A stretch of 64,000 nucleotides of DNA from Hypomyces perniciosus (taxonomy: Eukaryota > Ascomycota > Sordariomycetes > Hypocreales > Hypocreaceae). A program made the position numbers and the translations under genes. Below, in pieces: positions 28,738 to 57,400 of this stretch; positions within the stretch are counted from its first letter, which is position 1, and every line of letters starts with the position of its first letter. The stretch lies in the NCBI GenBank assembly GCA_008477525.1, contig SPDT01000010.1, positions 248,001-312,000 of the forward strand, read 5' to 3'. The notes under the pieces are model-generated. The model was given only the letters and a program-made list of their open reading frames with translations. It ran no database searches and had not been told where the DNA came from.

Positions 28738-29647
28738 GAAGCCTTACTGCTACTTCCTCTACGCTAATGTTGTCGATGCCGGCAAAGGGACACCTCGCTG
28801 GGGATTTCGAGGGTCACACGGAAGCAGGGCGTTTGCGGAGATTGGCGTAGTAGATCGCGATACTCTGCGTCTTGGTGCGCTTGGAGGCGGCTCTTGAAAG
28901 CGGACGGACTTGCGATGGGACAAGGGAGGGGGGGCAGCAGTCAGTCGAAGCGGCAGTGGGAGGGTTTCGGCGGGAGGTCGTGTGTCGGGGAGAGCGGTTG
29001 GATTCTGCGGAAGAATAATAGAGGAAATACAAGTATATGGTATTGCGCGGCGAAGGGGGCGAGTTGGTGAGAAGGCGAAAAGAGGAGAGTTGAGTTCTGT
29101 GGTGGATATTTGGGGTTCACTGAGGTGAAAGATTCTGCGTGAACTTCGACTTCCGGTGAATTTTACTGCGCGGTACATCGAAAAGCGTACCAACAAGGCG
29201 GTTTACGGGTTGCGGTTAGTGGCATGCCAGTAACCCTCCATCGCTGAGGCTCTAGGCTGTGGCCCATAGCACCGGCGTACAGAGGTCCACTATTGGGCTC
29301 TACAGGCAGCCTTTTCCAGGCGGTGGGTAGAAGCAGGTTTCCATTGATACTTCTATGGATGTAACTGTAACCAGACAACGGGATCCATAGGACGACGGAT
29401 TTGGTTGATTTCAAATTATCAATATTTCGTCATCACTGAAGCTCGAAAAGGTACGGGATGTAAACTACATGTGGTGGTATAAACGGAAAGTGTGCGCTCA
29501 AAATGAAGCCCTCCAAAAAGTGCGCAAATGAAGGTCCTGATAAAAACCATGAATGATTTCTTTAAATAACAAAAATCTTTCGTTTCTTTCAAAGTCCGCG
29601 TAAATACTAGCGCAAAAAAACTATGGCATCGCAAAAAAAGTAACGAT
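28738..29647. other. Spacer between eIF4E-like gene and tRNA-Ser
   Basis: The first 400 bp are purine-rich on the plus strand and are probably the promoter and leader of the eIF4E-like gene. The rest shows no gene. A-runs at 29614-29620 and 29633-29639 read as T-runs on the minus strand; the latter is the tRNA terminator. Confidence 0.55.
29632..29640 (-). terminator. Pol III terminator of tRNA-Ser
   Basis: Read on the minus strand, seven consecutive T (29639-29633) follow the tRNA 3' end within about ten nucleotides. This is a normal RNA polymerase III terminator and argues that the tRNA gene is transcribed. Confidence 0.75.
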
Positions 29648-29800
29648 CGACAGAGACAGGATTCGAACCTGCGCACGCAAACGTAATGGTTATCGAACAT
29701 CGGAAGTTCAAGACCATCTCCTGCATTAATACTGTTAGTGATATGTCGGGTAATTTAGCGGCTTCGGGTCGACTAACCTTAACCACTCGGACACTCTGTC
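29648..29800 (-). tRNA. tRNA-Ser(UGA) with an anticodon intron and a second, spliceosomal-type insert in the D-arm
   Basis: Read on the minus strand. The acceptor stem GACAGAG (29800-29794) pairs perfectly with CTCTGTC (29655-29649), with G73 at 29648. T-arm GCAGG-TTCGAAT-CCTGT and a 13-nt variable arm make it type II. The anticodon stem ATGGT/ACCAT is perfect; anticodon TGA is at 29710-29708 and a canonical-position 15-nt intron at 29706-29692. The D-arm is broken by 57 nt (29777-29721) that begin GTTAGT, contain CACTAAC and end GCAG. Joining its flanks gives TCC-GAGTGGTTAA-GGA, a perfect 3-bp D-stem with G26. Without both inserts the molecule is an 81-nt standard fungal tRNA-Ser. Box B (GGTTCGAATCC) is intact, the insert has no T4 run and a T7 terminator follows. 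Whether the insert is removed is unknown; a disrupted pseudogene is the alternative. Confidence 0.85.
29721..29777 (-). other. 57-nt spliceosomal-intron-like insert inside tRNA-Ser
   Basis: On the minus strand the boundaries are AAG|GTTAGT and ATGCAG|GAG, with branch-like CACTAAC about 14 nt before the 3' AG. Length, branch site and boundaries match the protein-gene introns of this window (48-76 nt). It does not sit at the anticodon-loop position used by normal tRNA introns. That it is an intron is inferred from the exact restoration of the tRNA fold on removal. Confidence 0.75.
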
Positions 29801-54498: not shown

Positions 54499-57400
54499 AT
54501 GGGGTTCGTCTCCCGGCTGCGAACTTGTCGCCGTCGCTAACGTTGCCACAGTGTTCCCAAATTCTTCAGATGGCTCTCCGAGCGCTACCCAGCCATTTCG
54601 CAATTGATCGCAGAGAACCGAATACCCGAGTTCGACTGCCTCTATGTGCGATTTCCCGAGCCGTCTGGTCTCTCTATCTGACTGTACTGACTCTCGTTTC
54701 TAGCTCGACATGAACGGTATCATCCACAACTGCACCCACAAGGATGCTGGCGAGGATGCGACATTTCGCCTTAGCGAAGAGGAGATGTTCATCCGCATCT
54801 TCAATTACATCGAGCATCTCTTTGGCAAAATAAAGCCCAAGAAGCTTTTCTTCATGGCCATCGATGGAGTCGCGCCTCGCGCCAAGATGAACCAGCAGCG
54901 AGCCAGACGTTTCCGAACGGCTTTGGATGCCGAGAACGCCCGTGAAAAGGCAGTCAAAGAAGGCATCGAGCTACCCAAAGAGGAACCGTTTGACAGCAAC
55001 TGCATCACCCCAGGTATGATCCATGTCTCGAGATTTGTCGCCAGATGCTGACCACCTGTAGGAACCGGGTTTATGGCGAAACTCTCCCAGCAACTCCGTT
55101 ACTTTGTCAACAAAAAAGTATCACAAGATACTGATTGGCAGGGCTGCGAGGTCGTGCTCTCTGGTCATGACGTCCCCGGTGAAGGAGAACACAAAATCAT
55201 GGAATACATCCGAAATGCCAAGGCACAGCCCGGCTACAACCCGAATGTCAGGCATTGTCTCTATGGCTTGGATGCCGATCTGATCATGCTGGGGCTTCTC
55301 AGCCACGACCCTCATTTTTGTCTTCTGCGTGAGGAAGTCACATTCGGACGAGCCTCTAAGACGAAGTCAAAGGAGCTTGAGCACCAGAACTTCTACCTCC
55401 TCCACCTCTGTATCGTGAGGGAATACCTGGAAATGGAATTTCAGGAGCTTCAGAAAGATGGCGCCTTAAGTTTCCCGTTTGATCTCGAAAGAGTCATCGA
55501 TGATTTCATCTTGATGGCATTCTTCGTCGGAAATGACTTTTTACCCAATCTTCCCGCTTTACACATCAACGACGGCGCTCTGGCCAACATGTTCAGGATC
55601 TATACAACTGTTTTACCCCAATGTGACGGCTATATTAACGAAAATGGAGTCATCAACATATCCCGTTTACAACATTTGCTTGTGGAGCTTGGCAAAGCTG
55701 AGTTGGACCAATTCGAGAACGATGTATCCGACCAAATGTGGTTCGCATCCAAGCAAATGGAGAAGAAGCTCAAAGGGAAAAACGGAGCCAGCAACAAAAC
55801 AACAACAAAGTCTAATCAACTTGTCATTACGTCTTCCCAGAGAGATTTGTGGAAGAAAAAGATCCGCCCATACATCTCAAGTCGGCCTAAACAGCAGTTG
55901 GATCTGGGGTCAGATCTGAAGGCCGCAGATCGTAAATTCGTTCAGGACCTTGCTGATTCTATGCATTTAGAGTGGTCAACCAAGGAGGATGAAGAGGGCC
56001 ACCGCCATCTCATCTTGGCATTCCCTGCCAAGCAAAGCGGCAGTGAAGACGAGGACGAAGAGGATGAAGAAGAGGAGGAGGGCAACCTGGCTGCCTATCG
56101 TGTCATGAAGATTTATGACAAAGCTCAAGTCGTTGATGTTACCCCTGAAGGCGCCCAAGAAAACTACGAAAAGTTGTATCAAGAGAAGTACCAAGGCTGG
56201 AAGACAAAGTACTACTTGCAAAAGTTTGAGGAATGGGCCCCGGATAAGTATGAGGAAGAGCAGAAGAAGCTCTGTGAAAACTATTTCGAAGGACTGCAGT
56301 GGGTCTTGTTCTACTATTACAAAGGAATTGCATCCTGGCCGTGGTTCTATGGATATCACTATGCGCCGCTTACATCTGGTAAGTAAAATGGAAGTCTACA
56401 AAAGAACGAGCTGGGCTGACATGTTGCAGATGTTGTCAAGGGCATTGGTGCCGACCTCAACTTCCAAAAAGGGCAACCCTTCAAGCCTTTTGAGCAGCTC
56501 ATGGGTGTGCTGCCAGACCGAAGCAAGAAAATCGTTCCAACAATCTATCATGACCTCATGACCAGTTCGGACTCTCCCATCATCGATTTCTACCCAAGGG
56601 ATTTCGAGTTGGACATGAACGGAAAGAAGATGGAATGGGAAGCAGTGGTCAAAATCCCATTTATCGACGAGAAGCGTCTTTTGGCGGCAATGGCCCCGAA
56701 GAATGAGCTTCTAACCGACGACGAAAAGGCACGGAACGGCTTTGGAGTCCCGATCAAGTTCACCTTTTCTCATGATGTCAATTTCACATATCCTTCGCCA
56801 CTCCCAGGCATATTTCCAGAGGTTCAGAATTGCCGCTGCATTGAGAACATTTTTGACCTGCCCGACATCGAGGGGCTGGAGTATGTTTCGGGTCTTGCTA
56901 ACGGCACCTTGTTGAGCGTCGAGGCCCTCGCAGGGTTTCCAACTTTGCATACATTGCCATATTCCGCACAGCTGGTTGAAGGATATGGTATCAACGTTTT
57001 CCAACAAGACAGCCGCAATCCAAGCATTGTTGTTACTTTGACCGACACTGAAATGCGCACCAAGATAGAGACTTGGAAAGCAAAACTGGGTCAGCGCTGC
57101 TTCGTGGGCTATCCATTCCTTCAAGAGGCCAAGGTCATCAAGGTTCAAGACGAGCTCTTTTCCTACGAATTGGCCGAAAATGGCAAAGACGTCATTGAGC
57201 AAGACCACAGCAATAGAGAAGCAGCCGAGTTTGCCAAAGAGGCCGAGTTCCTCGAGAATTGGCATGCTAAACGGCTGGGAATCACCATCGGCCAGGTGGA
57301 ATGTCTAGTGCATGTTCACATGCTGAAGGGGCTCATTAAGACGGAGGAAGGAGCCCTCATTAAGGAATATGCCGAAAATCCGAGCCTACGGAGTGTCTAT

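Follow-up and report, generated by a model that had tools for sequence, protein, structure and literature searches.

Introns of nuclear tRNA genes and introns of mRNAs have been treated as belonging to separate worlds, each with its own enzymes. The closest described exception is the U6 snRNA gene of Schizosaccharomyces pombe, in which an mRNA-type intron was reportedly described by Tani and Ohshima in 1989 and 1991; like the inserts that we report here, it has GT-AG ends and interrupts an RNA made by Pol III. The nuclear rRNA genes of ascomycetes offer a second parallel, being described as carrying mRNA-type GT-AG introns in a structural RNA that is not made by Pol II, but there the host is a Pol I gene and not a tRNA. 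The canonical nuclear tRNA intron lies at position 37/38 and is cut by the Sen2/34/54/15 endonuclease, whereas the present inserts lie at 23/24 or 35/36, have GT-AG ends and contain a branch site. Non-canonical tRNA introns of eukaryotes have been assigned by reviews to nucleomorphs, Cyanidioschyzon and some permuted algal genes (extracts of PMC4090602 and PMC3978253). In nucleomorphs, Cyanidioschyzon and archaea, introns likewise interrupt the D-arm or other positions, at times two or three per gene; the non-canonical ones of archaea and Cyanidioschyzon are tied to bulge-helix-bulge (BHB) motifs, and those of the Guillardia nucleomorph measure 3-24 nt and follow a splicing route said to be unknown (PMC4090602, in extract). 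Many non-canonical tRNA introns are without a defined BHB (PMC3978253, in extract). The string "spliceosom" has no occurrence in PMC4090602.

Here we describe six interrupted tRNA-Ser genes of Hypomyces perniciosus, the first of them in a 64,000-nt stretch of contig SPDT01000010.1 (the window). We interpret their inserts, from sequence, as functional U2-type spliceosomal introns in nuclear tRNA-Ser genes, with the window gene a working Pol III gene, a reading to which we assign a probability of about 0.87. What is new is the host class: GT-AG introns in rRNA and U6 are already known, and the open-licence PMC literature, as represented by titles and the beginnings of abstracts, yielded no description of a nuclear tRNA gene with a spliceosomal intron, in agreement with the preliminary description of this DNA, whose author was aware of no case in fungal nuclear tRNAs. 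Compared with fungal U6, the hosts are tightly folded tRNAs with promoters in their exons, and a second, canonical intron is present in all but one of the six.

The window gene is a tRNA-Ser(UGA) on the minus strand, the coordinates of which proved exact on direct reading and folding (Table 1). Its 57-nt insert begins, as had been described, with GTTAGT and terminates in GCAG, and its CACTAAC places the branch A 14 nt from the 3′ splice site; taking the insert out restores, again as described, the D-stem TCC/GGA and, on folding, a complete cloverleaf with perfect stems of 7/7, 3/3, 5/5, 3/3 and 5/5 base pairs. We take the D-arm junction to lie at positions 23/24 of the usual tRNA numbering; it can be slid over AGG, with GT..AG among the possible registers. 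The 96-nt remainder is a perfect type II cloverleaf in which a canonical intron lengthens the anticodon arm. This 15-nt intron shares its position and its TTCGAT 3′ end with the intact UGA copies L002 and L003, and it went unmentioned in the preliminary description, although the 81-nt product named there is obtained with its removal (153-57-15=81). The gene accordingly contains two introns of different kinds, the insert being almost four times the length of the canonical intron; the latter lies at position 37/38, and the inserts lie elsewhere (23/24 in the window gene, 35/36 in the others). The T7 terminator that had been described was confirmed by direct reading. The insert is indeed free of TTTT, which had been held in its favour, but this is no strict criterion, since one U6 intron of the same genome has TTTT. 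The two promoter elements, the A and B boxes as judged from their consensus, are unbroken. With the intron removed, cloverleaf, anticodon, A and B boxes and terminator are complete, which makes this a predicted functional tRNA gene.

Table 1. Coordinates of the interrupted tRNA-Ser genes and of the U6 introns (positions without a contig label are those of the window; tRNA positions follow the usual numbering, and boxes are assigned by consensus)
Feature	Position	Strand	Details	Basis
tRNA-Ser(UGA) gene (window gene)	29648..29800	minus	UGA; 153 nt primary, 81 nt mature; 57-nt insert	direct reading; cloverleaf after insert removal; stem pairs complete
Exon 1 (23 nt)	29778..29800	minus	acceptor 5′ strand, D-stem 5′ half, D-loop, first G of D-stem 3′ half	
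Spliceosomal-type intron (57 nt), D-arm	29721..29777	minus	between positions 23 and 24; GTTAGT..CACTAAC..GCAG	
5′ splice site	29772..29777	minus	GTTAGT	
Branch-site sequence	29734..29740	minus	CACTAAC; branch A at 29735, 14 nt from 3′ splice site	
3′ splice site	29721..29724	minus	GCAG	
Exon 2 (14 nt)	29707..29720	minus	D-stem 3′ half, anticodon stem 5′ strand, anticodon UGA, A37	
Canonical tRNA intron (15 nt)	29692..29706	minus	after position 37; CTTCCGATGTTCGAT; endonuclease cutting expected	
Exon 3 (44 nt)	29648..29691	minus	position 38 to discriminator (G), including variable arm and T-arm	
Pol III A box	29783..29793	minus	TGTCCGAGTGG; entirely within exon 1, unbroken by insert	direct reading
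Pol III B box	29659..29669	minus	GGTTCGAATCC	direct reading; T-arm also matched by pattern
T7 Pol III terminator	29633..29639	minus	8 nt past discriminator base	direct reading
L046	C3:2427701-2427849	minus	GCU; 54-nt insert	
L047	C3:2429670-2429821	minus	GCU; 56-nt insert	
L092	C16:4245813-4245960	plus	GCU; 53-nt insert	
L102	C23:2813115-2813266	minus	GCU; 56-nt insert	
L063	C4:5884857-5884992	minus	AGA; 55-nt insert	
U6 intron, L172	C3:1700142-1700201 (1482-1541 of locus)		B box inside	
U6 intron, L173	C4:5851644-5851701 (1475-1532 of locus)		B box inside	

Such inserts are present in six tRNA-Ser genes on five contigs, namely the UGA gene of the window, four of six GCU genes and one of four AGA genes. 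All five GCU and AGA inserts lie between nt 35 and 36 and so divide the anticodon; GT-AG is the sole possible register in the four GCU genes, and the AGA junction can be slid over AG. Excision from the UGA and AGA genes yields complete cloverleaf stems. The A and B boxes are kept in every one of the six, each of which is followed by a TTTT run at most 23 nt downstream. A canonical tRNA intron accompanies the insert in all but the AGA gene, and the intact UGA and GCU copies carry one as well. Intact copies were found for each anticodon (two UGA, two GCU, three AGA). DNA searches with L046 and L063 as queries returned six GCU and four AGA genes, and the UGA total is three including the window gene. 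Essentiality of the window copy does not follow, given two intact tRNA-Ser(UGA) genes, nor does that of any of the six, given intact copies for UGA, GCU and AGA. Pattern search turned up no UGA gene of the window's type that is free of an insert, and the mature sequences of the window gene and of the AGA gene L063 are unlike those of the other copies found.

In a survey of tRNA-like loci, the intron signature was present in 6 of 13 serine rows and in none of 73 other tRNA-like rows. The survey was built on the T-arm GCAGGTTCGA (69 places, 68 included, the one left out being a second place on the mitochondrial contig) and on the B box GGTTCGANTCC (164 places, at least 84 included), other T-loops lying outside it. 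Before counting, nine presumably mitochondrial loci were removed, as were identical duplicates. The resulting 86 rows, all of which were scored for the signature, comprise the 13 serine rows, 52 others with a TTTT run and a length below 130 nt, and 21 that were kept apart because they were too long or had no TTTT run within 23 nt, some of them not being tRNAs. A tRNA family search of the genome scored 63 of 2316 candidates, so the numbers given here are those of the surveyed loci and not genome totals. The T-arm census contains no tRNA-Ser(CGA), a gene that the genome may lack or that may differ in its T-arm. Three of the tRNA-like loci (L054, L077 and L089) form one family that has no T-run terminator and shares the same downstream sequence, probably a tRNA-derived repeat.

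The traits of U2-type introns, a GT with extended consensus and an AG, a branch site and an mRNA-like length, are all found in the tRNA inserts. Their 5′ ends read GTTAGT, GTATGT, GTACGT, GTACGT, GTAAGT and GTGAGT, and their 3′ ends CAG or TAG. The branch motif, CTAAC in five and CTAAT in one, places the branch A 10-14 nt from the intron's end, and the 3′ splice site is the first AG past this motif in five of the six; in the window gene one AG comes earlier, 2 nt after the motif. Within the window, the insert alone fits the rule of GTNNGT, CTRAY at a branch distance of 8-18 nt and YAG among 127,820 stretches of 57 nt on both strands; when lengths of 50-60 nt are allowed, 16 segments fit, including the insert and mRNA introns such as that at 56379-56429. 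Eight mRNA introns of the window genes for MCM5, eIF4E and XRN1 were placed by spliced alignment to six to eight homologous proteins per gene, with at least six proteins supporting each intron; the encoded eIF4E and XRN1 match Cladobotryum mycophilum proteins at 77% and 81%, and MCM5 matches Trichoderma at 95%, which points to a place in Hypocreales near these two genera. This protein-anchored approach was used in place of ab initio intron finding, from which only 10 weak candidates were obtained, and a ninth candidate intron (45 nt, beginning GTCGCC) was left out, having no branch motif and support from one of eight proteins. The eight introns are 48-72 nt long and GT-AG, and seven have CTRAC at 10-17 nt. 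The window insert looks like these mRNA introns, and the lengths of the tRNA inserts (53-57 nt) fall within the mRNA range as given by eight introns of three window genes. Beyond the signals the six inserts are unlike one another, L047 and L102 excepted. Membership of the window insert in an introner or repeat family was considered and rejected, as it matches only itself at E values up to 10. We also observed that CTAAC, present in five of six tRNA introns, is missing from seven of the eight mRNA introns, six of which have CTGAC; tRNA introns may require a stronger branch site, in what is a small sample with four paralogues among the six.

These signals bear on the possibility that the inserts are tRNA introns of an unusual type, excised at non-canonical positions by the tRNA endonuclease or by some other enzyme, and that their GT-AG ends are coincidental. 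Introns at such positions are known from archaea, nucleomorphs and Cyanidioschyzon, with the nucleomorph route called not known (extracts of PMC4090602), and in one slid register the D-arm junction could form the 4-bp helix of a BHB. However, GTNNGT, a branch motif and YAG recur in all six inserts. A simple helix test, of little weight since only one of five canonical controls passed it, found no 4-bp helix at the 35/36 junctions: the best pairing was 2/4 for the GCU genes and 3/4 for the AGA gene in one slid register. We regard an endonuclease origin of the inserts as highly improbable.

An exon comparison provides a further line of evidence. A single mature 81-nt sequence is shared by all six GCU copies, excision from the four interrupted ones giving exactly the sequence of the intact paralogues. 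By contrast, in five of the six pairwise comparisons the GCU GT-AG introns have 33-38 identical positions in 55-59 columns, close to the 29.5-30.8 obtained after shuffling with the end signals held fixed; the closest pair, L047 and L102, has 48 of 56 (33.9 after shuffling). The 60-nt 5′ flanks of the interrupted copies share 30-34 positions in 63-66 columns. Exon identity combined with intron divergence and kept signals is the pattern expected from selection on the spliced product. Against this reading counts the fact that L046 and L092 have identical canonical introns (14/14) beside strongly diverged GT-AG introns, and the identity of the GCU exons could stem in part from recent duplication or from gene conversion limited to exons.

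The same comparisons speak to the alternative that the interrupted genes are tRNA pseudogenes, into which GT-AG introns hopped and which then died, leaving intact copies to do all the work. Intact copies do exist for all three anticodons, and short insertions in the D- and T-arms of eukaryotic tRNA genes are said to reside mostly in one of many synonymous genes, supposed to be pseudogenes (PMC4090602, in extract). The preliminary description had tied pseudogene status to intact tRNA-Ser(UGA) copies elsewhere together with a lack of spliced RNA from the locus; the two intact copies supply half of this, but all base pairs are kept relative to an intact copy. The window gene differs from L002 by 13 substitutions that changed five pairs on both sides and one on one side and broke none, and when 13 changes were placed at random all pairs were kept in only 76 of 200,000 trials. 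That the window copy differs from an intact copy by pair-keeping changes only argues against a pseudogene. Likewise, AGA L063 differs from the intact L060 by one pair changed on both sides and two on one side, with none broken. Stem pairs are complete in the UGA, GCU and AGA types, the exons of four interrupted GCU copies are identical despite strongly diverged introns and 5′ flanks, GT, branch motif, YAG and a downstream TTTT run are kept in six of six, and four of the six GCU genes would have to be dead. Decay of these genes therefore seems to us improbable, if the least so of the alternatives.

It is also conceivable that the loci lie within Pol II transcripts and that the introns are mRNA or lncRNA introns overlapping tRNA genes by chance. 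The window tRNA is on the same strand as the eIF4E gene, whose start codon (28737) lies about 0.9 kb downstream. Yet the arrangement is repeated at six loci on five contigs, each time inside a tRNA-Ser, and the two open frames of at least 110 aa that overlap the window tRNA gave no Pfam match. A chance overlap of this kind is very hard to credit.

A precedent within the same genome was found in U6 snRNA. In each of the two U6 genes found, a GT-AG intron with a B box inside (GTAAGT..CTGAC/CTAAC..AG; 60 and 58 nt) lies immediately 5′ of ACAGAG, and no intronless U6 was seen among these two matches, obtained from the 47 of 2649 first-look candidates that were scored; the Rfam U6 match starts within the intron. 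The same architecture, an intron with an internal B box, is reported for Schizosaccharomyces U6 (Frendewey 1990, via PMC10484740, in extract), and reverse splicing followed by reverse transcription and recombination is given as the likely origin of the U6 intron (PMC10484740, in extract). Because both U6 genes found carry mRNA-type introns, the spliceosome very probably already processes Pol III transcripts in H. perniciosus, and the supply of U6 very probably depends on such processing. Together with the five further tRNA-Ser inserts, the U6 introns strengthen the view of the preliminary description that the window locus is best read as a nuclear tRNA gene with an mRNA-type intron.

We infer splicing itself, the spliceosome as its agent and the order of steps from the sequence of these genes. 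Pol III tolerates a widened spacing between A and B boxes, and tRNA-Ser is charged without reading of its anticodon. In the proposed pathway, Pol III would start from the internal A and B boxes, both of them exonic, and transcribe the gene in full; the nuclear spliceosome would then take out the GT-AG intron, as it very probably does in U6 snRNA; the restored cloverleaf would make the canonical intron, where present, accessible to removal by the tRNA endonuclease and ligase; and the mature tRNA would be charged with serine. In budding yeast the tRNA endonuclease acts in the cytoplasm (PMC4090602, in extract), which would fix the order with the spliceosome first if the same holds in H. perniciosus. 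Read as sequence, the four GCU precursors cut after position 37 with the insert still in place would have the anticodon GCG and U37, so that skipping of the first step would yield a serine tRNA that reads an arginine codon.

A wider scenario, to which we give somewhat less than even odds, is that spliceosomal introns colonised the nuclear tRNA genes of a fungal lineage, probably by reverse splicing, with maturation proceeding by spliceosome and then endonuclease in fixed order. The introns would have been reverse-spliced into exposed loops of tRNAs, and the products then reverse-transcribed and recombined, the proposed entry sites being the anticodon loop at 35/36 (GCU and AGA) and, once, the D-arm. 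Anticodon-splitting introns in two isoacceptor families beside intact copies would provide a system for the study of intron gain and of reverse splicing into folded RNA, and the same genes one for asking how Pol III transcripts that are short and tightly folded are dealt with by the spliceosome. A single tRNA precursor with both kinds of intron would join the worlds of tRNA and mRNA splicing, the range of GT-AG introns in RNAs not made by Pol II would extend from rRNA and U6 to tRNA, and, if our reading is true, serine-tRNA supply would depend on spliceosome capacity.

These genes may also expose a blind spot in annotation. The Rfam tRNA model matched the four GCU genes end to end, did not so match AGA L063, and gave no tRNA match at the window locus. 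ARAGORN called a tRNA-Arg(ccg) at 29647-29737 in the window and none of the six interrupted genes correctly; the intact genes L002, L003 and L044, which have canonical introns, were also missed or misread, and so ARAGORN is no fair test of such a blind spot. In tRNAscan-SE 2.0, the check for non-canonical introns is described for archaeal candidates (PMC8450103, in extract).

The tRNA searches yielded three observations on the assembly itself. With its repeated sets of tRNAs, C17 (145 kb) looks mitochondrial. Matches that score the same as those of C17 occur at C8:4331-17023, in the first 17 kb of a 4.2-Mb contig, the start of which may be mitochondrial DNA that was either joined on in assembly or recently inserted into the nuclear genome. 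On C2 (15.3 kb; L174), five tRNA matches of equal score lie about 2.9 kb apart, in what looks like a tandem array of one unit.
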